A stretch of 64,000 nt of DNA, taken from Thozetella sp. PMI_491. Lineage: Eukaryota > Ascomycota > Sordariomycetes > Chaetosphaeriales > Chaetosphaeriaceae. Where the stretch lies: NCBI GenBank assembly GCA_021432635.1, contig MU270036.1:522182-586181 (forward strand), in the 5' to 3' direction. A program made the translations under genes and the position numbers. Within the stretch, counting starts at the first letter, position 1, and every line of letters begins with the position of its first letter. The notes beneath the pieces were generated by a model. That model ran no database searches, had not been told where the DNA came from, and worked only from the letters and a program-made list of their open reading frames with translations. Of the stretch, positions 5,038 to 60,320 are shown in pieces.

Positions 5038-7049
5038 TTATGCGCTAGATGTCGTATGATAAGTAGTCAGGCCCTCCTCCAATCCCTTAATCTGAAGGGC
5101 AAGATAGCGCCCGTAATAGCGTGCCAAGGCCAGGTTCCCGCCCATAAACCAGTACCCAGGATGGCCACTCTGGCGCCAGATGGTGCGCCACTCACCCTCT
5201 TCGTCGAATCCCCACACATCTTTCAGCTTATCTGCCACCTCGTCTCCCATCATGATGCGGGCTTGCGTGCGCATATTCTGGTAGCCAGTAGCGAAGACGA
5301 CCTCGTCGGCCTCGAGCTTTGTCCCGTCCGCGAAGAGAATGCCGTCGGGCTGCACCTCGGTGAGCTCCTGGCCCTGCTTGACCTTGATCTTCCCCTCGGT
5401 TATCAGCTGGCTGCAGCCGACGTCGATGTAGTAACCGCCTCCGCGCTGGAAGTACTTGAAGAAGAGGCCCGCGTTGTCGACGCCCTTGTCGATCCTGAAG
5501 CCGGCCCGCTCGAGGGCCTCCAGGGTGGTCTTGTCCATCTGGTTGGCCAGCTCCGTTACTTGGATTTGCTGCGTCTTGGACAAGGGAGTCGGCATGCTCC
5601 ACAGAATTGTGTCGGCGTCTTCAACCTCAGGCGTGCCCTCCTCGGCATACAACGGCCCTAATGCGATCTTAGTAATGGCCTCGGAGGAGACCACACAAGT
5701 CGTGCTACGCTGTATCATTGTGACATCGTAGCCGTTCTCGTAATAGTCCTGCGCAATGTCGTGCCCGGAGTTGCATGATCCCACGACAATCGCGCGCTTG
5801 CCCTGAGAGTTGGGCTGGGCGCCGGGGAACTCGGAACTGTGGCAGAGTCGGCCCTTGAAGGTCTCCATGCCCTTGATGGTTGGGAAGTTCTTTTTTCCCG
5901 AGTGCCCAGTAGCTTGGATGATGTGGCGGGGATGGATGGTTCGTGTCTCCTTGGCGTCTCCGATCTGGCGCTCGACGACGACATTCCACCGCTGCTTCTC
6001 GCCATCCCACGAAGCAGAGACAAAGCTGGTGCTGCACCAGATATTGAGCTCCAGGAGGTTGACATAGGCCTCAAAAAACTCGGCCAATTTATCTTTCGGT
6101 GTGAAGATCGGCCAGTGGTCAGGGAAGGAGATGTAAGGCATGTGGTCGAACCACACTGGATCGTGAAGGACTAGCTGACGGTACCTAGGGAGATAGAAAA
6201 GTCAGAAATGGCTGGTATGGCTTTGGACGAGGACCCATACCTCTGGCGCCAATTATCGCCGACGCGCTCGTTTCGGTCAATGACTAGTGTGTCCACATTC
6301 AGCATCTTTAGACGCGCGGCAGAGGTAAGCCCGCCTTGCCCAGCACCTGCGAATAGGAGTTAGCAACGCATGTAAGACATGTAAAAGGGGGGCCCAGGCA
6401 TACCAATAATCAACACAGCCGGTTCCCTGTCCTCAAAGGCAATTTCTGCCGACCTCTTTTCCTGCCAGTTCTTCATGCCACGACTGCCGCCGTGCTCGCC
6501 GCCCTTCGCTCGCCGGGTCCTCCGAGGCTCCTCAAAGCCCTTCAGCTCGCGGAGGCCGGTGTAGAAGGTCAGGATCTTCCACCCGCCGTCCCGATGGATC
6601 AACCGCACGTGCCCCTGTCCGGTGCCGGTCTTGGTTGTTACAGTGGTGAAGAAGGCAACGCACTTGGACTCTCCGTAGGCATCGAGCTGGTTGACGCCGG
6701 GGGCGCGCGCCGGCGTCGATCGGTCTAGGGCAATGGCTTCCAGCTCACCCCCGCGAAGGACAAGGTACTTTTCGATCTTCTCACGGCCCCTCAACGTGCG
6801 CATGTCCCAGGACAGGCACAGGTGGTCTCTCCAGAAGCCATCTTCGAGGAAAAGGTCGGCTATGGCCTTGAAATTCTTGTCGGCAAAATGCTTGGAGAGT
6901 GCGTCAATCAACTCGCTGGCAGCTTTGTCTGCGTCTAGATCCTCGGGGAGCTTGTCTTTGGGCAGCTCGGCTGGGAGGATGTTGACCGAACCGACCTCGA
7001 TTCGGTTGTCGCTCGGAGCTACAAAGGTGCCGTTGGTGTGGGCCGCCAT
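5038..7049 (-). CDS. flavin-binding monooxygenase with N-terminal NTF2-like domain
   Basis: Exons 7049-6404, 6346-6241 and 6184-5038 give 632 residues. The start is the ATG at 7049 (MAAHTNGTF). Residues about 40-175 are an NTF2/SnoaL-like fold. Then come the FAD-binding GAGQGG (216-221), the FMO/BVMO-type fingerprint FKGRLCHSSEF (360-370), the NADPH-binding GSCNSG (386-391) and FATGY (548-552). It should insert one oxygen atom into a small substrate (N-, S- or Baeyer-Villiger oxidation) using NADPH and FAD, in the cytosol. It is divergent from the CMD-like gene across a 499-bp shared promoter that carries the cluster motif at 7284. The two-domain layout is known in fungi. The substrate is not known. 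Confidence 0.9.
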
Positions 7050-7548
7050 GTTCGTAGACGGCAAGATGGTAGGAGACGAGGACAATAGTAAGAGTAATTT
7101 AAGGAGAGGAATGCCATACCACCCCCATTCCCTCGGGGTCGAACCCTCGTAAAATACGTAACCACATGTCTGAACCCGACTCGCGCCCCCTCAAGATCGG
7201 ACGACTATCCCCTCTTCCCCATCTTGTGGCGTGGGGTACTGTCTTGGGACTGCCACACGTGAGTCCGGGGAGTTGCGGCCGATGGGGACACTAGCATGAC
7301 TCCGGTCCAGGGTTCCTCCATGCTCAAAGCCACCACGAGGTGGAGTTCTTAGCGTTGTGGCACAAGAAGATTCGCTCCGCTATCGCGATGCCAAGTGTCC
7401 GCCCTAAGAGGTGTCTCCACGTTTCTCCAACGGATGAATGTCTCAAATTGAGCCCATTCTTAAGATCTTCTAGCATCCGAAGCAGCGACAAAAGTAACAC
7501 CCCGAAGTTGCTGCATCTCGTGGCCTATCTAGCACTTACGTCTTTCAA
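7050..7548. promoter_or_regulatory. bidirectional promoter of the monooxygenase and CMD-like genes
   Basis: This 499-bp gap separates two divergent starts (7049 minus, 7549 plus). It is rich in CGG and CCG triplets, including CGGCCG near 7276, and contains the shared cluster motif at 7284-7305, almost midway between the two starts. No gene lies inside it. Confidence 0.6.
7284..7305 (+). promoter_or_regulatory. cluster motif copy 1 (candidate Zn2Cys6 site)
   Basis: The pattern begins GGGGACACTAGC and ends ACTCCGG, 22 bp in all. It matches the copy at 8939 at 17 of 22 positions and shares both ends with the copy at 13132. It lies 235 bp from the monooxygenase start and 244 bp from the CMD-like start. 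Confidence 0.55.
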
Positions 7549-8289
7549 ATGGGATCCGAAGCCGCTCTTGCAAATGGCAAGGCCGTGGACAGCGGCCTCA
7601 CCAAGCTGTTCGAAGATCTTGAACAGAGATTTGCGGCAACGAAACTGGGGGATGACCGCTGGTACATTCTCGCGGCAGCATGCTTAGTTGCCGGCCCCGA
7701 TCCCGAAGCTGCTGACCAGCTGTATTTGCACTTGATCAACCAGCCGCGCTACAGCACGAGCGCTTCACGGCAGGCCCTGGTTCGGAGGTTGCGAGAGGCG
7801 CTCGTCAAGTCGATATCGCTCGTCGGTGTGTGTAAGCCCATCGAAGCGATCCTAGCCATCAGCAAAGTCGAGCGAGACGAAGACCGCGACTATTCCACGA
7901 CGCGAGAGGGCTGGCAGTGTGACGAGAGCAACCATGCGCGTGCTATGGAGTGGTACAACAAGATTTATACGCGCAACGCCAAGGACACTATTGGGCTGTT
8001 CAACTCGCACAAGGATTTCGCTTGGATCTCGGCCGAGATCACCTACGGCTTCTACCTGTCGGACCGCCAGGTCCTCGACGATCTCGACACGGAACTCGTC
8101 GTGTTCCCGGCCATCATGTCGCAGAACCTCCCGACCGAGACACACTGGCACATCCGCGGCACCCGGCGCATCGGCGTCTCGAAGGAGGAGACCCAGATGT
8201 TGTGGGATAGCATTAAGCTAGTTGCTAGCCACTTCGGCGTGTCTTTACATAAGGTGCCTACAGTGGATGCAGTTGAACCTGATGTCTAG
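7549..8289 (+). CDS. carboxymuconolactone decarboxylase-like (CMD/AhpD fold) protein
   Basis: An intronless 246-residue protein, ATG at 7549. It is all-helical, with the CMD-type segment from about 110 to 235 (YNKIYTRN, SAEITYGFYLSD, THWHIRG, SKEETQMLWD). This fungal branch lacks the paired cysteines of peroxidase-type AhpD, so a lactone, acid or hydration-type step, or an accessory role, is more likely than peroxide reduction. It is transcribed away from the monooxygenase from a shared promoter, and such pairs are often co-expressed. It probably works in the cytosol on the monooxygenase product (inference). Confidence 0.82.
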   Translation: MGSEAALANGKAVDSGLTKLFEDLEQRFAATKLGDDRWYILAAACLVAGPDPEAADQLYLHLINQPRYSTSASRQALVRRLREALVKSISLVGVCKPIEAILAISKVERDEDRDYSTTREGWQCDESNHARAMEWYNKIYTRNAKDTIGLFNSHKDFAWISAEITYGFYLSDRQVLDDLDTELVVFPAIMSQNLPTETHWHIRGTRRIGVSKEETQMLWDSIKLVASHFGVSLHKVPTVDAVEPDV

Positions 8290-9245
8290 TTTACAGGTTG
8301 TCGCATCTGGTTATGGGACGCCGATTGGAGGCATGGTGCTGCGGGGCTGGAGGGCTGGCGGCATACACGGAGCTTCTCAAAATGGCATTCACTAGAGCGG
8401 TTTAACTAGAAGCGAATATATCTTCGCCAATGGTTCAGCTCAATAATGTTATTGCGCGTTCTCAACTTCTTGTGGTAAACATGGTATGCGCAGAAATCCG
8501 ATTCCGGGGTAGCCTGTACGTACGTTTGCGGCAACGACTTAGTCTGCCAATAGCACGACACAGGTTCGCTTATCAAGGTAGAATGGACACCCCACGATTA
8601 TGGAGATCCCCAAGTATCCAAAACATGGCTCCATGACTCGCGGCCTTTGTCTGCCTTGAACTTGGCACAGCAAGGACGGTTCAGCCTCAGATACGTTGCC
8701 CATCTCAGATGCTGCCCCGATATTTCCGATCGCAGCTCCAGAATCTTGACCACTAGCCTGAAGATCCGATCCTATAGTTCACCTGGCAAGCGATGATGCC
8801 ACCGGACTAGCATGAGAACCAGCTCGGACGCATCATCCGTCCTCGATGCACAAGATTGCGGGGGCGTAGATTGCCCAGAATTTTCCCCCGCATGGGGACC
8901 CCGCGACCCCGCAGCAGGGGGGTTCAAAGGAGCTCGTAGGGGAGACTTGCCATACTCCGGGCTTCCTTTGGGCCACTTTCCCCTCAATTTCCCCGCCACA
9001 AGCAAGGCCAGCCCAGGGAATAGGCGCCGGTCACAACAAGTCTTCGGACGCAAGGGAAGTCCAAGTGGATCGGACTCGTCAATATCCCCCCGGATTTGAG
9101 CAATTTCGGGTCATCCTCCTTGATAGGTCTTCTTGACACGCCGCCCCTCCATCTCGGGGCAGCTAATATCTCTCCCTCTCCATGCGCTGGGCCAGCACCT
9201 CAGGAAGCCACTCTAGTCGAGCGCGGCCAAGCAGGGCCCGGAAGA
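8290..9245. other. intergenic, promoter of the Zn2Cys6 regulator
   Basis: No coding signal. The last 400 bp are GC-rich with runs of C and G (about 8885-8930) and hold the second copy of the cluster motif. Confidence 0.5.
8939..8960 (+). promoter_or_regulatory. cluster motif copy 2, upstream of the regulator
   Basis: Starts GGGGAGACTTGCC and ends TACTCCGG, 22 bp, 286 bp upstream of the regulator ATG. The first ten bases (GGGGAGACTT) and the last eight (TACTCCGG) are the same as in the copy at 13132. Its place before the regulator gene suggests autoregulation (inference). Confidence 0.55.
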
Positions 9246-11586
9246 ATGGAGCAGTCGCCGGCCAACGAATTCGCTGACTTGGACGACACTGCCCCGAAGC
9301 GGCAGCGGCTGTTCATTTCTCGCCAGGTAACGCCTCCCGCCGGTACCCCGTATGGGGTTTTGAGAGTCCTCCGACTAAGACTTTGTTGTGTGGTGGCTAG
9401 GCCTGCGAAAGATGTCGTCTGAAAAAAACGCGGTGCGATGGGGACACCCCCTGTGGCCAGTGTCAGGGGGTCGGAGCCGAATGCATTTTTGGAGATAGGA
9501 AGGCCAGCAGGTATGTATGTACGTGGGGCCCCACGGGGTCAGGTCCAGACCGTGGCTAATAGCTAAATTTCCGCGGCCTAGAAACGAGGTGTCCCTTGGC
9601 ATGATCTTCAATGCCCTGAAGCGGATTGAGACCAAGGTAGAAGGAGTCCGGAGTGGCGAACCCCAAGCCCCAACCTCAAAAGCCAAACGGCAGAGAAGCA
9701 ATGCCACAGTGGCCGCTTCAGTGTCTGAGTTTTCGCATTCCGCCAGTGATAACGATGGGTATCTCGACGCGGAGGGCGACCCAGCAACGCCCAAGGCAGC
9801 CTCTCTGCCGCCTCTACCCCTGGGGGCGTCCCTAGCTGCATCAGCAACTCAGTATCCATCCATCCCATATGCCATCCGCCAAATTCTGCTATGGCCGGCC
9901 GTGCGGAGAATGCTGAGGAGTGACGATCAGGCTGACCATCGCTTCGACCCCATCTATGCCACGATACTCGAACAGAAGCGGGCGGCGCTTCCGCCACCCG
10001 GTCCCTCCAGCGTGGACTGCATGGCAGGGCTCCGCATCTCCGAAGTCAATGCTCTCGCCGATAGCTACTTTTCGACCTTCAATTTGGCGAATCCGATCCT
10101 GGACCGCAAGCTCTTTGTCCAACACACCCTGGGCACGGCCATCAACAGCGACTTTGGGTCCAACATCGAGAGCTGCGTCGTATTGGTCGTCATGGCGCTT
10201 GGCTCTCTCGGCCACCAAGCCCTCCGTGAGGGTGGCTTCGTTGGCGCCTCAGCTGAAATTCCGGGGGCAGGGGGCACCGAGGATGGGATCCCCGGACTGG
10301 CCTTCTTTAATGAGGCTAGGAAGCGAATCGGGTTCCTTCTGTGCGAAAACAGCATCCAGAGCTGCCAGTACTATCTCCTATCTGGGTACGTCTGGACCCG
10401 CCACCCTGGGGTTGGAGACTTGCTAGTCCCCCTAGTCACTAACACATGGGCTAGACTATTCTTCGCGCACCTAACTCGCCCAGTCGACTGGTGGGTGATG
10501 GTCAACCGCGCATGCTTATGCTGCATCTCGTTCTGGGAAAGGTGCAGTTCGCGCCCCTGGCCACCCCTCTCCGACCTCCCCACATGACCGAGGTCCGCTA
10601 ACTTCACGCCCAGGATACCACGCGACTGCGATGAATGGATGCTGGACATGCAGTCTCGCCTGTTCTGGAACACGGCAATGTTCGAGGCAGTGCTCACCCA
10701 AGACCTAGACCTCCCCGTGAGCAAGCTGCTCGACTACGAGGACAAGGTCCCCCTGCCTCGGTTCGTCGAGGTCCCGGGCATCGCGTTGGCCGCATCGTTG
10801 AGCGCCGAGCACGAGGAGCGCGAGTCGCTCTCCCAGTACCATTTTCTCTCGCAGATCGCCCACCGGATCATCCTGACGCGCCTGCGCAACACCATGTTCG
10901 CCAGCCCCGGCTCCAAGCTGGTGGAGCTGTCTAGCCCCGACGATTACCCCCCGCAGGCGCTCGAGGATGAGCTGCTCCATCAGTTTGAGCAGTGGAGACA
11001 CAAGCTGCCGCCGTCGCTGCAGTGGGACAACCAAGAAGTGATCCCACCCGCCACGACCCCGGCAAACATGCTTGTCGTCCCGTGGCTTCGGTCCCGTTAC
11101 GTAATTTCCAGATATCATCTCCGGCGACCTCTCTTGTAAGTTCCCGTGTATATAATACGGTGCGGATAGACCCCTGACCTGACCCTAGTCACCGGGCCCT
11201 TCACCACCCCAATTCTATGTCGGAGCGTGACCTAGAAAAATGCAAAGATGCTCTTGCTCGCATCATGGACTGGACGTCGCTCACCAAGTTATCACTTGTA
11301 ATGCGAAACTGCCTGCCACTCAAATTCTTTATCTGCACCCAGTATGCCCTGTTCGCAACCTATTTCTCATGCTTCCTATCTAATCTGGCTATATAGGCTG
11401 TTCGGCATGATACTCATCATGGATGCCCTCGGTCAATGCGATGTGGTCAAGGTCAAGGAACTAGTCCCAGCAGGCTATGGCGCATGGCGCTTATTTGCCC
11501 TCGATCTCCTCAAGGCATTTGCGCCATGTAGCCCGGCGGTAGCCCGAGACTACGAGATAGTCCTAGGCCTATCCACACCAGAGTGA
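9246..11586 (+). CDS. Zn2Cys6 transcription factor of the monooxygenase cluster
   Basis: Seven exons: 9246-9326, 9401-9510, 9582-10385, 10455-10541, 10614-11135, 11189-11341, 11397-11586. The model gives 648 residues. The zinc cluster is C29, C32, C39, C45, C48, C55 (ACERCRLKKTRC, then CGQC), followed by basic residues and a short linker. The middle homology region (fungal_trans) spans about 180-560, with YYLLSG, RPVDWWVMVNR and RYVISRYHLRR. It is a nuclear DNA-binding regulator. Intron 3 (10386-10454) is 69 nt with no stop, so retention would add 23 residues in frame. The gene sits in the middle of the cluster and carries the shared motif in its own promoter, so it is the natural pathway regulator. 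Confidence 0.92.
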
Positions 11587-11804
11587 CAGCCCGTAATTCT
11601 CCCCAGTTTGGCATTGCTGGCGAGATGCAAAGGATCTCTAGCTTGAGCTAGAATACACTCGTAAAGGATACACAAGGACTTGAAGGGACAGCCCTGTTAT
11701 CTATAGAGTAGCTTGGGTGTATACAACAATAGTCTAGCTATCTAATGCGCCATCATGCACAAACATGAGATATTCAATCCGCTAAGCTCCAATGCTGTAA
11801 TCAG

Positions 11805-12668
11805 TTATAACTTTGCCTTTTCCTCGTAGAATCCCGTTCCGGTCGAACTTGTCAAGGCACCATCCACGACCAATGTCTGGCCTGTTACATATCTAGCCAC
11901 CTGGCTTGCCAAAAACGCGGCCGCGTTAGCAACATCTAGCGCGTCACCCATAAATCCCATAGGGACGTTGTGGCGCGTGATCCGGTTGAAGGTCTCTCGT
12001 ACGGAGGGATCTGAGCTTTCCTTCATTTGCTCCACCAGGGGCGTGAACATGAGACCCGGCGCCAGAGCGTTGACGCGGACTCCCTTGGCCGCAAACATGA
12101 CGCCTGTGACGCGTGTGAAGTGGATGACGGCCGCCTTGGCGCTGGCGTACGCTACCTGGGGCTTCCCCAGGAACTTGATGCCCGCGATGGACGCATTGTT
12201 GATGACGGCGCCCGATCCCTGCTTCTCCATGATGGGGAGCACCGCATGGCAGGCCAGGTAGACGCTCTTGAGGTTGAGCGCGATCTGCTTGTCCCAGACC
12301 GCCTCGGGCATGGTCGCTGGGTCACCTGCTGCAGTGGCTCCCACGTTATTGACGAGAATGTCGATTCTCCCGTGCTTCTTCATGACGGCGTCGACCACCC
12401 GGGCGATGTCGCTCGCCGAGGTCACGTCCGCGGCCATAACGTCGCACACGCCGCCGTCTTGCCGCACGCGCGATGCCGTGTGCTCCGCTGCGCCGAGATC
12501 AATGTCGCAGCCGAACACTTTGCAGCCGTTCCGCGCGAGCACCCAGGCTATCGCCGCTCCGTTGCCCCATGTGTCTGAGTTTGCTGTTTTGGCTTGGCCC
12601 ATGCCCATCAACAGGACCACTTTGCCCTGGAGGTCCGGGTACGTCGCGTGGACGTGTGTTCCAGCCAT
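11805..12668 (-). CDS. short-chain dehydrogenase/reductase (SDR)
   Basis: An intronless 287-residue protein, ATG at 12668. It is a classical SDR in most respects: NNVG at 107-110, catalytic Ser160, and Tyr174-x3-Lys178 (YASAK). The cofactor loop is unusual. The common TGxxxGIG is replaced by a longer stretch, residues 20-38, with GMG and then WGNGAA about ten residues later. The last residues (GFYEEKAKL) do not form a known targeting signal. It should reduce a carbonyl or oxidise an alcohol with NAD(P)H. It is divergent from the MFS carrier across a shared 814-bp promoter with the cluster motif. Confidence 0.9.
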   Translation of the reverse strand: MAGTHVHATYPDLQGKVVLLMGMGQAKTANSDTWGNGAAIAWVLARNGCKVFGCDIDLGAAEHTASRVRQDGGVCDVMAADVTSASDIARVVDAVMKKHGRIDILVNNVGATAAGDPATMPEAVWDKQIALNLKSVYLACHAVLPIMEKQGSGAVINNASIAGIKFLGKPQVAYASAKAAVIHFTRVTGVMFAAKGVRVNALAPGLMFTPLVEQMKESSDPSVRETFNRITRHNVPMGFMGDALDVANAAAFLASQVARYVTGQTLVVDGALTSSTGTGFYEEKAKL

Positions 12669-13482
12669 GCTGCACGTCTACCTCGGATAGCGAGGTGGGA
12701 GCAACAACAGAGAGTATAGAGACGTAATGGTGATGCGAGTGGCTCGCAATGGTATGTCTGATGAGATTTGGTGTCTGGCGAAGGGAATACCCCCCTCACC
12801 TATTAACATTGGTATGTAGAATCTTATAGGCCATTTGCTCGAGGACTTGGCCGGCAGCTCCTTGCATAAGCGTCTACTGGGGGAATTCGCCCCTGGGTGG
12901 CAGCATTCGGAGTTGGACTAACGCCCCCGAGCCCCCTGCTTGGCGGCGAGGAAATAGCTATGCACCCCGCATTGAGAGCAATCCCCCCAAGGGGCTTCGT
13001 GGAGCCCTAGCTTCAGCTACCTTACCAACTAACCAAGATCGAAGTGCACGGCATTGCAGCCCCTAGTCACGCGGGAATTGGTGCCGCTTCTAAAGGCTTG
13101 TGCCGTTCTCCCGCATGGCCCTCGCTCAACCGGGGAGACTTTGCTACTCCGGAGGGCCCACTCCTACCTACTCTGTGGTCCACCACAACAAAGCCCCCAA
13201 AGACTAGCCCCATGGGGTCTTAAGTGCCTCCCCACATTCGCCCCAGTAAGTCTCGGGCCAAGAGGCATAGGAATGGGTCCAGATTTTTCGGGGCGATGTT
13301 CACTCGCATTAACCCCCTGGACAGCAAAAGATGCATCTATATATCCGGTCCACCTAGCTGCACCTGCAGAGGAACTTTGACTCTCCAGTGCCAACTCCAG
13401 AGCAACCCTACCACCCGCCCTCGCCTCCAGGTGGTCTTGTCCGTCTGCTTTCTTTGAACCGCCCCTCGGCCAGCGCAACCTC
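12669..13482. promoter_or_regulatory. bidirectional promoter of the SDR and MFS carrier
   Basis: An 814-bp gap between divergent starts (12668 minus, 13483 plus). It is rich in CCCC and GGGG runs. It contains the cluster motif at 13132-13152 and a weaker reverse-strand look-alike at 12908-12927 (starts CGGAGT, ends GCCCC). Nothing coding is convincing. Confidence 0.6.
13132..13152 (+). promoter_or_regulatory. cluster motif copy 3, SDR/MFS promoter
   Basis: A 21-bp copy starting GGGGAGACTT and ending CTACTCCGG. With the preceding CC it forms an imperfect inverted repeat (CCGGGGAG, nine bases, CTCCGG), the kind of paired CGG half-site bound by Zn2Cys6 dimers. It is 331 bp upstream of the MFS carrier and 463 bp from the SDR start. 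Confidence 0.55.
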
Positions 13483-15425
13483 ATGTCTGCACACGAAGTC
13501 AAAAGCAACACGGGTTTGGGGGACAGTCCGTCCAACGAAAAGATGGCAACCGGCGTCGAAATGCTGGAGAACGGGAAGGAAGAGAGCCTTACCCACGACC
13601 CTCTGGCCTTCAACGATGATGAGAAGGGGCTGGAAAAGCGGTATGCCACTCTTGCTCGGAATCGATGGCATGCGAGGCTAATTACTCTACGATATATAGT
13701 ATCATCCGCAAGATCGACTACCGGCTCCTCCCGACCACGGCTACCATCTATTTGCTGTGCTACCTCGACCGTTCCAATATCGGTATGACGAGCCCCAGCA
13801 GACAATCTTTAATAGAGCAGAACAGGGCTCATTGATATACAGGCAACGCCAAGATCCTCAACTCATCGACCGGCAACGACCTCATGACAACCACAGGCAT
13901 GAACAACCAACAGTACATCGTCGCACTGATGCTCTTCATGGTTGCCTATACCATCTTCGAAGCCCCTAGCAACATGGCTCTTAAGATCTTATCGCCTAAG
14001 AGGTATGACTATATGCTCTCGCCACATTCACCTATCCAATTATACTAACCAGCCTTCCATACAGATGGCTTGGCTTCCTCGTGTTTGCGTTCGGCGCCCT
14101 CTGCATTGGTATTGGAGGTGCTCACAACGCTGAAACCATCACGGCGCTCCGGTTCCTCCTTGGCGCTGCCGAGGCCGGCGTCTTCCCGGGCATGATATAT
14201 TACTTCAGCTTCTGGTACCGTCCGCGGGAGCGTGCATCACGCATTGCCGCGTTCCTATGCAGTGCCACATTGTCCGGGGCCTTTGGAGGGTATGAGCCTC
14301 TACGTTCTACTGCCATTACGTCCTTAGTATTCGCTAACCTGCCTGATTGCAGTTGCATTGCTTATGGAGTTGGACACATGAACGGTGCAGGTGGCATACA
14401 GGCCTGGCGCTGGCTCTTCATCATTGAGGGCATTCCCTCGGGTAAGCCGACTCAGACCCGGTCATGGTACTATTGAGCGCCCATATTAACTGGAAATACA
14501 GTTCTTGCCGGGGTGCTGGTCTTCTTTTTCCTGCCAAACTACCCCGAGGATGTTTCCTGGCTCTCTACGGAGGAGAAGGACTTCCAGACGCGGCGCATGT
14601 GCAACGTTCTTCTACCAAGGTAAGTCCATCTGACTCAAGGGCTACTTAGCTTCAAGAATGACCGAGGCTAACGAAGTGGACAGTGAACAGAAGATCAACT
14701 GGGTAGACGCAAAGGCCTGTCTGACAGACCCGCGCATGTATGCGCATTACCTCGCATACTTCGGCATCGGCAGCTGCGTGGCTTCGCTTTCGCTGTTCTC
14801 TCCCACCATCGTTGCCGGCATGGGCTATAAGGATCTCGAGGCCCAGTTGTACACAGTGCCGCCGTATGCGGTAGCATATGTTGTCACCCTGGGTGCCGCG
14901 TGGCTCTCGGACCGCTACCAGACCCGTGGACTCATCGCTGGCATCTCATTTACCATCGGATTGATCGCCTTTATAGTTTCAGGTATGGCAGTCTCCTTCC
15001 TTTAACGGCATTCACTGTGCCATTGTCCCTGTAGCTTTGTCCATTGCAGGGACCCTAGCTGACACTCTTTCTTCTTAGCTACGATTTCGGGAAATGTGTA
15101 CGTCACGCGCTATGTTATGCTCATTCTCGCCACTACCGGCGTGTTTGGTGGCCTTCCGTCCCTCTGTGCATGGGTGGGCGACAACAGCCGCACCACCACG
15201 GCCGCGGCGCTCTCCACCGCGTTGAACATCGGGCTCTCTGGTCCCAGTCAGATCATTGGTGTCTGGATTTACCGAGCTCAGGATGCGCCGTTCTACCGCC
15301 TAGGGCACAGCGTCAACGCGGCGATGATCTCCATTAGCATGGTTGCCAGCTTTGGGCTCACATTTTATTATCGTCGCCAGAACGCGAAGATGGCAGGAAC
15401 CAACCAGCAGAGATGGATCCCGTGA
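13483..15425 (+). CDS. MFS transporter, allantoate permease (Dal5/ACS) type
   Basis: Eight exons: 13483-13640, 13700-13782, 13843-14002, 14065-14289, 14353-14441, 14502-14619, 14684-14982, 15079-15425. All phases close to 492 residues. Seen: RKIDYRLLP and YLLCYLDRSNIGNA before and in segment 1, segment 5 with RFLLGAAEAGVFPG, and the loop FLPNYPED. These mark the anion:cation symporter family, whose members carry nicotinate, allantoate, pantothenate and other small organic anions across the plasma membrane. In intron 6 (14620-14683) I prefer the acceptor after GTGGACAG, because a GCTAAC branch site lies just upstream. It is divergent from the SDR and is the likely uptake arm of the cluster. 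Confidence 0.9.
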
Positions 15426-21843: not shown

Positions 21844-24800
21844 ATGGGAAAAGTATCAGCCATAGTCCTGGCTGTAGCGAGCCTTGTCACCATTACATTT
21901 GTCTACGACAGAGCCACAAGAGGGATTCGGACGCGCCTCGTCACCGAGAGATCACCAAAGTCTCGCTTTGAGCTCGTACAAGCCAAACAATACGACACCC
22001 CTGCACGGGCAGATGGGGTTGAGTACGTGGACTACTATAGGCCGGAAACATAGCAAGCTGACGAATGTAGCATCGTCTTTCTCCACGGCCTGGGATCAAA
22101 CCCAGATACAACATGGCGAGCGAGAGCAATGCCCGAAGCCCTCGAGGAGACGAGCGCTAGCGAGCGCTACGTGATATGGGTCAGCGACTTCCTCCCTGCC
22201 GACCTGTCTGATCATCTTCGAGATATTCGCCTGTTCTTCTACAACTACGACTCGTACTGGAAGAGAGACTCGCTGAATACGCGCCGTTCAATCCTTGGCA
22301 AAGAGCTCCTTGACCATATCAAGAGTAGGATCCGTACAACCGAATCAGTGCGTGTGAGGACTAAGCCGAGGCTTCAAGGTGCTAACAAGTCTTTAACAGA
22401 GCCAGAATCGCAGCCTAATCTTCGTGGCCTACAGTTATGGGGGTCTGGTTGTCAAACAGGTAGGCGAGCGGACCCGTATGACCAAACTTAGATCTGACTG
22501 GGATGCTTTAGGCACTCGTCAGGGCCCAAATCGATCCTGAATTCAGTTTCATTGTCGAATCTACCACTGCGGTCCTCTTTCTCGGCACACCGCATCGTGG
22601 ATCTGCCTTTAGCATGCCGGGGCGACTATGGGCGCGACTTCTTTGGCCCCTGGGGTCCAACACATCCCTTTTAGCTGACCTCGACTACGACTCGACTTCA
22701 TTGCGTGACCTTCATGATGAATTCGTGCAAATAAAACATGGTAGACTACCTGTTTTTAACTTTTACGAGCAGCGGCCGATACGAGTTGCTCAGTTTTGAT
22801 TTCTCAGGTGGCAGGAATTCGTAAATGGCTTCCCTCCTCGACCTCGCCAAGGTGTGCTAACATCAGATACAGTGTGTCATAGAGCAGTCTGCTGCCTACT
22901 CAGCGGGACCCAACGTCCACAACATCGGCCTGTCGGTTAACCACTTCGATCTAAACAGATTTAGTTCTCGCGATGAGAATTATCAGAGCATCTTGTCGAA
23001 GCTTCTGGAGGCTACGTCGTCTTCGACTGTTTCCGTCAAACACTTCTACTCCGTCCCCCTGGAGACAGTAGAGAGCTACACGCAGCGAGAGAGCCCGTGG
23101 AGGGAGCTGGAAGACAAAATGTGCCTACGACACGACCACGCCAGTATTCTTTACGGGTGCGTTATCTCCGGATTAGGGGGCGTCGGCAAGTCACAGCTTG
23201 CGCTAAAATATGCCGAAACTCATAAGCACCGCTACAATCCAATTCTTTGGATCGATGCCAGCGATGCTGAATCGTTGCGATCAAGCTTTCAGCGATGTGC
23301 TGTGGAGCTGGACCTTCCAGCTAGCAAATGGAGCCAAAATCAAGGGTCAGGTCTGGTGGACGACGCTGCTATACGAGCCGTGTTATGGTGGCTTCGAGAC
23401 AGAAGCGAAGCGGATGATGAGTGGCTGGTTATTGTCGACAACGCCGACGACCTCGGCGTAGGAGTCAAACAGATTATGCCGAAAGGGGAGCGCGGTAGCG
23501 TGATAATCACCAGCCGGGATGAACTAAGCTTAAAGCTCATTCCTCGAGGTTGCGAGAAGATCCAGATCGGAGATATGTCCTCAGAAGAGGCGACGACATT
23601 GCTTCTACACTATCTTGGTGGTCACGCTGATGAATACTCCGAGGCTGTTACCTTGAGGTGTAAGGAAGTGGTGCACAGCCTTGGATACCTAGCGCTCGCA
23701 GTAGATCTTGCGGGGGCCTACATTGGTGCCGACTCGGATCCAGCAACAGCACTAACACAATACCTTGAGGATTTCATCACACACCGTGATGAGCTTTTGC
23801 AGATGGATGCATTTCGAGGCTTGAAACCAACAGAAAAGACCGTTTGGACAGTCTGGGATACCACACTAGAAAAGATCCGGCGAGACAACCCAAACTTACA
23901 CCCGGATCGACTCCTAACACTGCTCGCCCATTTCAAAGGCACCATCATCCAGGACGAGATTTTTCGACTGGCCTCTCTCAGTATGCCCCTATTAAAGGGT
24001 GAAGCTGGGCCAGAATTGCCGCTACCATTGCGAGAGTTCTTCCAGCTGCACGAAGAGAGATGGGACAGTTACCAGTACCGAGAAAGCTGCAAAGTGCTCC
24101 TCCGCTATAACATGCTCAAGCGAGTTGACGGCGATTGGCCAGGCTTAACGATGCACGGCCTTGTTAAGTGGCGCGCTTTAAAAACTGTCGCTGAAGAGAA
24201 GAGACAACACTGGCGCGGGTGCCACTTGTTTATTATTCTAGCCGTCTGCGATCAAATTACGGCAAACAAGCATCGACCAGAATTCCGCCGACACCTGATG
24301 GTCCATCTACCACTAGCAGCCGGGATGGTCGGTGAAAATGTCCTGGACAGCGAGGTCGAAGTAGTTCTTCTCTTCTGTCTCCTCCTTAAGATAGCAATGG
24401 TTTATTACGATGAGGGCCGCCATGACGATGCTGAGACGCTAATGATGCGGAGAATGGAGATGAGCAAACTGATATGCGGAGCCGACCACCTCGTCACGAT
24501 GCAAAGTATGAGTAATCTAGCTGCAGTATATAGAAACCAAGGTCGGTGGGTTGAGGCTGAGAAGCTACAAGCAGAGGTATTAGCGATGGGAAAGGAGAAA
24601 TTCGGGGCGGACTCTTTTGGCACACCAACGAATATGAGTAATCTAGCGTTGATATATTGCGACCAAGGTCGGTGGGATAAGGCTGAGAAGCTACAGCTAG
24701 AGGCATTAGCGATAAGAAAGGAGAAACTTGGGGCCGATCATCCTGACACGCTGACGAGTATGGATAATCTAGCGGTGACATATGGCAAACAGGGCAGGTT

Positions 24801-25416
24801 GGATGAGGCGGAGAAGTTGCAGAGACAGGCGTTGACGATGAGAAAGGATAAACTTGGGAGCGACCATTATGATACGCTGACGAGTATGGATAATCTAGCG
24901 TCGATATTATGGAACCAGGACCGGTGGGATCAGGCTGAGAAGCTGCAGGCAGAGGTATTAGCGACGTTGAAGGAGAAGCTCGGGGCCGATCATCCTGGCA
25001 CACTACAAATCATTAATAATCTAGCATTGACATTAGGAAAGCAGGGCCGGTGGGATGAGGCTGAGAAGCTGCAGGTGGCAGCGTTAGCGTCGATGAAGGA
25101 GAAGCTCGGGGCAGACCATCCTGACATACTGATCATTATAGATAATCTATCGTTGACATATAGCGACCAGGGAAGGTTGGATGAGGCTGAGAAGCTACAG
25201 GTAGAGGTATTGGCAACGATGAAGCAGAAACTCGGGGAGGATCATCCTAGCACGCTAACAGCTATGAATAACCTTGCACTGAGCTGGAAGAGACAGGGGA
25301 GACATGAGGAAGCACTGGCACTAATGAAGGACTGTATCCGGGGTACACAAAGAGTCTTTGGTCCTGATCATCCAGACACTTTGGTTTCGTTGAAAACGCT
25401 GAAAGCGTGGAGTTAA
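21844..25416 (+). CDS. NOD-like receptor: alpha/beta-hydrolase, NB-ARC, TPR
   Basis: Exons 21844-22022, 22071-22347, 22400-22459, 22512-22820 and 22873-25416 give 1,122 codons in one phase. Intron 1 (48 nt, GTACGT donor, GCTGAC branch) removes an apparent stop and restores DGVDIVFLHGLGSNPDTTW, the family signature. The N-terminal part is a serine-esterase-like hydrolase (YSYGGLVVKQ, FLGTPHRGSAF). The NB-ARC part has a P-loop GLGGVGKS (about 375-382), Walker B WLVIVDNADD and GSVIITSRD. The C-terminus has eight TPRs. One TGA remains at codon 268 (22797-22799), where TGG would suit the usual FW..RWQEF, so the copy is broken, or reads through, at that site. Such receptors sense non-self and can trigger cell death in fungi. 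Confidence 0.85.
24415..25410 (+). repeat. eight 126-bp tandem TPR units inside the NLR gene
   Basis: Eight consecutive 42-residue units (126 bp) with the pattern GRWDEAEKLQ, KEKLGADHPDTL and NLA..Y..Q. Units 3 to 7 are very alike; units 1 and 8 are the most divergent. Near-identical units let repeat number change by unequal exchange, as known for fungal NLRs. Confidence 0.85.
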
Positions 25417-58992: not shown

Positions 58993-60320
58993 ATGGGTGT
59001 GAGGACGTTTGCTCTGTTTGCCCTCAGCGGGACCCAGCTATTTGGGGCCCTGGCCGCTGCGGTCGAGAAGAGGCAGGATGTGACGCACAAGTACTGCCCG
59101 GGGGGGACCAACATCTGCTTCTCTGAGACTCAGGCCAACGATATCACGTTCCGTATCGCCATCCCGGATGTGCAATCGGCGCCTTTTGATATCCTCCTCC
59201 AGGTTGTCGCGCCAATATCCACGGCGGGATGGGCCGGCATCGGCTGGGGTGGCAAGATGGCAAACAACCCGCTAACCGTGGGCTGGGCGAACGGCAATGG
59301 CGTTGTCGTCTCTTCTCGGTGGACAACGTGAGTTATAGTTTCCTTTCATTCCGTCTTGAGCATCATATACTGACGATGAGCTCTAGTGGGCACACACAAC
59401 CGCAGCCGTATACGGGGGCTACGTACACAGTCCTGCCTTCCGCGCACACCAACGCTACGCATTGGCACCTCGATGTGCTCTGCACGGGCTGCAGCCAGTG
59501 GGGCACCACGTCTCTTAATCCCAACGGAGTGAACACGCTTGCTTGGGCCAAGTCTAGCAAGTCGGTTCAGACGGCGGCGAGCAACTCGAGCGTGTTCGGA
59601 TACCACGACGGCAGGGGAACTTTTGGCCACGACTTTAGCACCGCCAAGATCCCGCAAGGTGTATTTGACGCGCTTGTATATGACATCGGTAACCCCAGCA
59701 CGGCATCTACCACGTCCAAGGTGCAGTCTCATGCCGAACCCCCGTCCTCGGCGGGAGGATCATCAGCGGCCAACCCCCCAAGCTCAGCCCAGTCATCAGT
59801 TGTAACGAGGGTGACAACTCTGTCGCAGCCTCAGCAGCCCACACCTTCAACCCCCGTCGTCCAGACCAGTGTGGTGACTTTGCCGCACACGACACCTCCT
59901 ACCAGATCTGGCGGGGAGGACAGCCCGGTGACGCGAACAACTATCATTACAAAGCAGCCATCGCCCTCACCCACCCCGTCGGCGGTCACGATATGGATCA
60001 CGGAGCCTGACGATGGCGAGCCCGTCGCATTTACGCAGCCTCCCGGCGCCGGCAGTGGCGGTGTTGTCACAGTGACGGTCACAAGCGTTCTCGCACCAGG
60101 TGCTGTCACGCCCGGTCCGCTCGGCCCATGGGGAAACGGACCGCCACCTTGGGCGTCGTCGGGTGCTTTGCCGCCGTGGGGAACTTCTGGACCACCCCCT
60201 TGGGCGACGGCCGGTGTACCACCTATAGTTATCCCGCCAATCATCGGCAAGGGCAAGGGGAAGGGGAAAGGCCCCCCAGGTCGGCCTGTGGCGGCTGAGA
60301 ATCCGGAACAAGGTGCATAG
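58993..60320 (+). CDS. secreted AA8-type (cellobiose dehydrogenase-like) cytochrome b protein with proline-rich tail
   Basis: Exons 58993-59327 and 59387-60320 give 422 residues. Signal peptide 1-22, a KR at 26-27, then a CDH-type cytochrome/DOMON domain to about residue 220: YCPGGTNICF, GWGGKM with heme-ligand candidate Met89, DVLCTGC, and YHDGRGTFGHD with heme-ligand candidate His185 or His193. A long Ser/Thr/Pro linker follows, then PPPW-type repeats (about 340-395) and a GKGKGKGKG tract. No flavin domain is attached, so it is a free electron-transfer cytochrome. Known relatives feed electrons to lytic polysaccharide monooxygenases or reduce iron. No hydrophobic C-terminal GPI signal is seen in this model. 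Confidence 0.85.

Follow-up and report, generated by a model that had tools for sequence, protein, structure and literature searches.

Within the 64,000-nucleotide stretch of the Thozetella sp. PMI_491 genome analysed here (the window, C22:522182-586181), five neighbouring genes, encoding a flavin-containing monooxygenase (FMO), a protein with the carboxymuconolactone decarboxylase (CMD)/AhpD fold, a Zn2Cys6 regulator, a short-chain dehydrogenase/reductase (SDR) and a major facilitator superfamily (MFS) transporter, probably form a metabolic cluster controlled by the Zn2Cys6 protein that it encodes, in which uptake, oxidation steps and a CMD-fold step would be switched on together. Our confidence in this proposal comes from the existence of two such clusters in Thozetella, the one in the window (cluster 1) and a second one on contig C19. 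The genome searched comprises 72,315,471 bases in 157 contigs; gene limits were taken from our own gene models and open reading frames (ORFs), and domains were assigned by Pfam. The genes of cluster 1 are as follows.

5038-7049, minus strand: FMO, 632 aa, three exons (7049-6404, 6346-6241 and 6184-5038), gene model, Pfam FMO-like/Pyr_redox
7549-8289, plus strand: CMD/AhpD-fold protein, 246 aa, intronless
9246-11587, plus strand: Zn2Cys6 regulator, 648 aa, seven exons, gene model, PF00172, 99% identical to GQ53DRAFT_600982 of Thozetella sp. PMI_491
11805-12668, minus strand: classical SDR, 287 aa, ORF, PF13561/PF00106 and NCBIfam, YASAK (YxxxK) at residue 174
13483-15425, plus strand: MFS transporter, 492 aa, eight exons, gene model, PF07690

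The promoters of these genes share a motif, which the first-pass annotation of this DNA had located in three non-coding places. We found all three copies where it had put them, and all of them lie in intergenic sequence according to the gene models, copy 1 between the divergent FMO and CMD genes and copy 3 between the divergent SDR and MFS genes.

7284-7305, plus strand: motif copy 1, GGGGACACTAGCATGACTCCGG, left half TGGGGA, 16 bases between the triplets, 235 bp from the FMO ATG and 244 bp from the CMD ATG
8939-8960, plus strand: motif copy 2, GGGGAGACTTGCCATACTCCGG, left half AGGGGA, 16 bases between the triplets, regulator ATG 286 bp downstream
13132-13152, plus strand: motif copy 3, GGGGAGACTTTGCTACTCCGG, 15 bases between the triplets, 464 bp from the SDR ATG and 331 bp from the MFS ATG

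The consensus given in that annotation needed correction: its two-base gaps and fixed inner GC do not fit, the third site being 21 bp long with its inner GC out of register. As typed there, the pattern matches the window once, with 3 mismatches, where 0.17 matches are expected by chance. When aligned, the three sites consist of GGGGA[GC]ACT and ACTCCGG separated by 6, 6 and 5 variable bases, and the corrected search pattern was accordingly GGGGA[GC]ACT-N(5-6)-ACTCCGG, run with spacers of 4-7 against the reversed pattern as control. The copy at 13132 had been described as an inverted repeat with CGG-type half-sites, and this is what its sequence reads (CCGGGGAG...CTCCGG); within cluster 1 it is the one site with a complete left CGG, the other two lacking the C. 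A further CCGGGGAG half-site lies in the FMO/CMD promoter at window positions 7265-7272, starting 19 bases ahead of motif copy 1.

That the motif exceeds random frequency, as the first-pass annotation had supposed, is borne out by the genome-wide search, in which the corrected pattern, itself derived from the three window sites on which it was then scored, had three exact matches, all in cluster-1 promoters, with none for the control. In a shuffle test, the three promoters gave a best block of 8 of 9 identical columns beside a shared exact 7-mer, and none of their 1000 dinucleotide-shuffled versions exceeded 6 of 9; the block lengths of 7 and 9 had been picked post hoc. Seven extra sites (six with one mismatch, plus C14:594984, L048) were inspected, and five of them fall inside an open frame of at least 130 codons. 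A full-palindrome version of the pattern gave 3 matches against 8 for its control and was not used as evidence; it missed two of the three C19 sites described below because it demanded a pyrimidine before CTCCGG.

Searching the genome with the CMD protein and the regulator led to the second cluster, at about 669-680 kb of C19, which contains the same five gene types in a different arrangement.

C19 gene order and strands: SDR (minus), FMO (minus), MFS (plus), CMD (plus), Zn2Cys6 regulator (plus)

Pfam run on pieces of this region detected the SDR, MFS, FMO and Zn_clus domains, and the CMD protein was again without a match. Identity to the window proteins is 59% for the FMO, 69% for the CMD protein and 47% for the regulator. 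The cluster-1 pattern, with spacers of 4-7 and, as in the genome-wide mismatch scan, at most two mismatches, occurs three times in the 12-kb C19 cluster region, whose limits were drawn after the cluster had been found, compared with a mean of 0.075 and a maximum of 1 in 200 shuffles of that region; it occurs nowhere in the other 28 kb of the 40-kb C19 stretch and nowhere in the rest of the window. This C19 paralogue is the sole related cluster with readable DNA; the first-pass annotation had expected orthologous clusters to keep the motif, and the paralogue does so, its three copies lying in the promoters of structural genes (298 bp from the start codon of the SDR, 298 and 332 bp from those of the FMO and MFS genes, and 300 bp from that of the CMD gene).

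All three C19 sites have the form CCGGGGAsnCT-N7-nCTCCGG, that is, CGG-N17-CCG, with a constant 17 bases between the triplets, compared with 16, 16 and 15 in cluster 1. In four of the six sites of the two clusters, both the left CGG and the right CCG are complete. Recurrence of the same site three times per cluster suggests that one kind of regulator may switch each set as a unit, and binding by a Zn2Cys6 dimer would agree with the spacing of the half-sites (CGG-N15/16/17-CCG) and with the presence of a regulator gene in each cluster. A motif relaxed to cover both clusters occurs at 10 places in the genome, six being the cluster sites that served to build it and the other four lying elsewhere, compared with 7 places for the control; three of the four non-cluster matches (L032, L033 and L048) are among the seven sites inspected above, and the fourth lies on C84. 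FMO paralogues also exist on C20 (60%) and C16 (50%), contigs on which neither a relaxed-motif match nor a CMD match was found and on which the regulator-like matches are weak and distant. Just downstream of the second cluster lies a frame for a 1631-aa adhesin-like protein with Thr/Pro-rich tandem repeats (L065:5050-9945, minus strand).

The gene content proposed by the first-pass annotation stands for all five genes, the FMO, Zn2Cys6, SDR and MFS genes by Pfam and the CMD gene by predicted fold, without a Pfam family match. The regulator carries the six-cysteine zinc cluster (PF00172, 40.3 bits against a cut-off of 21), with the cysteine pattern beginning at residue 29. PF07690 matches the transporter at 117.6 bits (cut-off 33.4), and the solved chain nearest to it by sequence is the D-galactonate transporter 6e9n, with an E-value of 2.6e-7. 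When the SDR was compared with the named equivalogs of NCBIfam, none among the best 25 of the 221 families matched reached its curated cut-off.

Residues 43-625 of the FMO align without a break to residues 27-606 of JsFMO of Janthinobacterium svalbardensis (PDB 8acs) at 482 bits, and this alignment covers the N-terminal extension, which corresponds to the N-terminal (SnoaL-like) domain of JsFMO; Pfam alone gives no SnoaL hit. H258, D259 and Y502 are the equivalents of H216, D217 and Y458, given as active-site residues of JsFMO in PMC10028610. The motif FxGxxxHxxx[YF][KR] is represented by FKGRLCHSSEFP at residue 360, which fits except at the last position, where P stands for K/R. From these likenesses we predict a type II FMO with an N-terminal SnoaL-like extension and a Baeyer-Villiger-like step. 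JsFMO and the FMO-E/F/G enzymes of Rhodococcus jostii RHA1 (PMC10028610) share with the window FMO the domain layout, the FxGxxxHxxxF core and the equivalents of H216, D217 and Y458; the window FMO differs from them in being fungal and in sitting among five clustered genes whose promoters share a motif.

For the CMD protein, no match to PF02627, the CMD family, was listed at E-values up to 5, and its homologue P0122 scores 12.7 bits against this family, whose cut-off is 23. The predicted model of the window protein matches the fold of 4-carboxymuconolactone decarboxylase. Compared with the CMD/AhpD-fold proteins 4g9q, 2af7 and 1gu9, it is 14% identical to 4g9q, lies below the Pfam CMD cut-off and lacks the CxxC of AhpD, its cysteines being those at positions 45, 95 and 124 only.

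On this basis, we propose the following working of cluster 1. The MFS permease would import a small organic compound, possibly an organic acid, which would activate the regulator directly or indirectly. A regulator dimer would then bind the inverted repeat (C)CGGGGAsnCT-N5..7-nCTCCGG in the three cluster-1 promoters, two of which serve divergent pairs, and would turn on all five genes, including its own. The SDR might oxidise an alcohol, yielding a ketone; the type II FMO might insert oxygen beside the carbonyl in a Baeyer-Villiger type of reaction, forming an ester or lactone; and this product might be processed by the CMD-fold protein. We infer binding, induction, the order of the steps, the substrate and the catabolic direction, the regulatory part from sequence statistics and the chemistry from family membership. 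The regulatory interpretation offered by the first-pass annotation is supported at the level of promoter sequence, and it is plausible that, as suggested there, the genes make up a catabolic or detoxification system not yet described; no cluster with this gene set or site was found in the titles and abstract starts of the open-access literature matches listed.

Several observations weigh against the proposed cluster. Between C19 and the window, the SDRs are 28% identical (residues 78-210) and the MFS transporters 28% and 31% over two parts, and because of this low likeness the course of the two pathways may differ. The promoter of the C19 regulator gene contains no clear site and shows no more than a weak likeness (16/22), at 677623. 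The genome-wide scan allowing up to two mismatches, run with spacers of 6 and 5, revealed no enrichment of the pattern, giving 38 matches against 79 for the control with spacer 6 and 46 against 61 with spacer 5; these counts are at or below background, so the signal resides in the full matches and no wider regulon is visible. The 40-kb C19 stretch yields 25 rows at up to four mismatches, and therefore only the three best, with 1 or 2 mismatches and all in the C19 cluster, stand out. A hydrolase able to open an ester or lactone is missing from the five-gene cluster. In other fungi (Fusarium sp. NRRL 66182, F. austroafricanum, F. decemcellulare and Penicillium herquei), the CMD and regulator relatives are on contigs that differ in size, and the two genes are therefore apparently not neighbours there. 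Finally, the single relative of the CMD gene that turned up in the genome_contigs collection (L077, described below) has neither the other four genes nor the motif at up to two mismatches, with two strings at three mismatches.

The likeness of the three promoters could in principle be a coincidence of GC-rich sequence or a leftover of duplication, and the weakness of the ungapped 22-base comparison would agree with this, since 17/22 is also reached between unrelated promoter stretches and since, among 21 promoter pairs in total, the motif was the best pair in 3 of the 15 site-bearing pairs, with one further weak match involving the C19 regulator promoter. The shuffle test, the uniqueness in the genome and the three C19 matches all speak against this account, as do the flanks: blastn-short between the promoters gave matches of at most 16 bases at E-values up to 1 and no extended similarity, so that a recent duplication does not account for the sites. 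We consider this explanation largely refuted and hardly credible. General regulators might instead recognize the sites, which would then mediate carbon-source or stress control and not the action of the cluster regulator. The CreA-type consensus is SYGGRG, and the stress-type element is AGGGG; the reverse of CTCCGG, CCGGAG, fits the former, and AGGGG is present at copy 2. Such six-base sites are, however, ubiquitous (within the 40 kb of C19, CCGGAG occurs 29 times and CTCCGG 8 times), whereas the joint pattern occurs just three times in 72 Mb, always in cluster 1, and the C19 spacing is constant, which makes control by general regulators improbable.

A different objection concerns the direction of the pathway, since the FMO, the SDR and the CMD-fold protein could be tailoring enzymes of a biosynthetic (secondary-metabolite) pathway with the MFS protein as exporter. 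FMO, SDR, MFS and Zn2Cys6 genes are common in secondary-metabolite clusters, and many of the literature matches listed concern biosynthetic clusters. Against this stand the Pfam scan of 18 other window ORFs (selected single-frame ones), which included no polyketide, peptide or terpene synthase, and the sugar-acid transporter as the nearest solved relative of the MFS protein by sequence; we regard a biosynthetic role as unlikely, if less so than control by general regulators. A limonene-type pathway was considered because regulators of Grosmannia and Ophiostoma are among the closest relatives, and was rejected, no title or abstract start among the literature matches listed supporting it.

Returning to the two clusters, their relationship was examined in trees built from chosen rows. 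In the regulator tree (30 rows), a split with support of 100/96 separates the window regulator from that of C19, and on the side of the window regulator are Cephalotrichum, two Xylariaceae, Grosmannia, Niveomyces, Ophiostoma and two Sporothrix. In the CMD tree (28 rows), the C19 protein groups with Eutypa and Monosporascus; the support of 87/90 falls short of the customary 95, and the tree does not resolve the window protein. Given this split and this grouping, the divergence of the clusters is probably old, or one copy was acquired. One possible, still tentative view is that Thozetella keeps a complete regulon in two copies that diverged long ago: regulator and site would have moved together, the change in spacing by 1-2 bases would insulate the two regulators, and the SDR and MFS slots would have been refilled with other genes, for different substrates. 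This is less probable than the five-gene cluster itself; if true, it would offer a natural two-copy test of the co-evolution of a Zn2Cys6 regulator and its site after duplication.

Indirect signs of the same neighbourhood in other fungi come from two sources. In the Cephalotrichum gorgonifer model P0048, the first ~245 residues are a complete CMD protein, and the rest is the middle part of the regulator, without the zinc cluster. In Xylariaceae sp. FL1272 and Niveomyces insectorum, CMD and regulator are listed on contigs of equal size, a comparison that gave 4 coincidences among 64 and 58 rows, two of them Thozetella's own. A Fusarium model, P0018, has the regulator fused to a RidA-type domain, hinting at different neighbours in that genus. 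Several Fusarium CMD relatives (P0157, P0165, P0166, P0183 and others) carry the name 'DNA polymerase alpha subunit B', apparently a misannotation that has been propagated.

Outside this genome, the genome_contigs collection contained 1 relative among 31 pattern stretches, L077 (NYXK01000071.1), with 44% identity in the CMD protein; the 19 pattern stretches of the viral_contigs collection included no relatives, and megablast of positions 5038-8300 against the plasmid collection gave no match. L077 is filed as a Deltaproteobacteria metagenome-assembled genome, its CMD match is in two segments separated by an intron-like gap, and its neighbours look fungal, so that it may perhaps represent eukaryotic contamination or misbinning. 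Likewise, P0144, whose record is assigned to Candidatus Bathyarchaeota (contig of 3,272 bp), is a typical fungal CMD protein and probably represents contamination from a fungus.

A metabolic gene cluster with its own Zn2Cys6 regulator is a kind of system already known. Fungal clusters with a pathway-specific regulator of this class, such as the terrein cluster with TerR (PMC4360782), resemble the Thozetella clusters in having the regulator gene within the cluster and a shared promoter site. They differ in gene set and in the site, which in Thozetella is an inverted repeat whose CGG triplets stand 15-17 bases apart; in addition, Thozetella has two diverged cluster copies in one genome. If our proposal is true, sequence alone would have yielded the regulator, the site and the target set of a fungal oxidation pathway of which we found no description, and the three sites with the one protein would make an assay readily available and open a way to the substrate. 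With the paired clusters, one could also test whether the spacer length of a CGG repeat insulates paralogous Zn2Cys6 regulators. The best-studied type II FMOs have been assayed on model ketones and sulfides, according to PMC10028610, and a fungal member in a regulated context could help to find a natural substrate for this group of enzymes.

Elsewhere in the window, a frame of 807 aa (22993-25416) has an NB-ARC match and seven TPR_10 stretches and encodes an NLR-like fungal protein, and the frame at 59229-60320 contains a cellobiose-dehydrogenase cytochrome domain.

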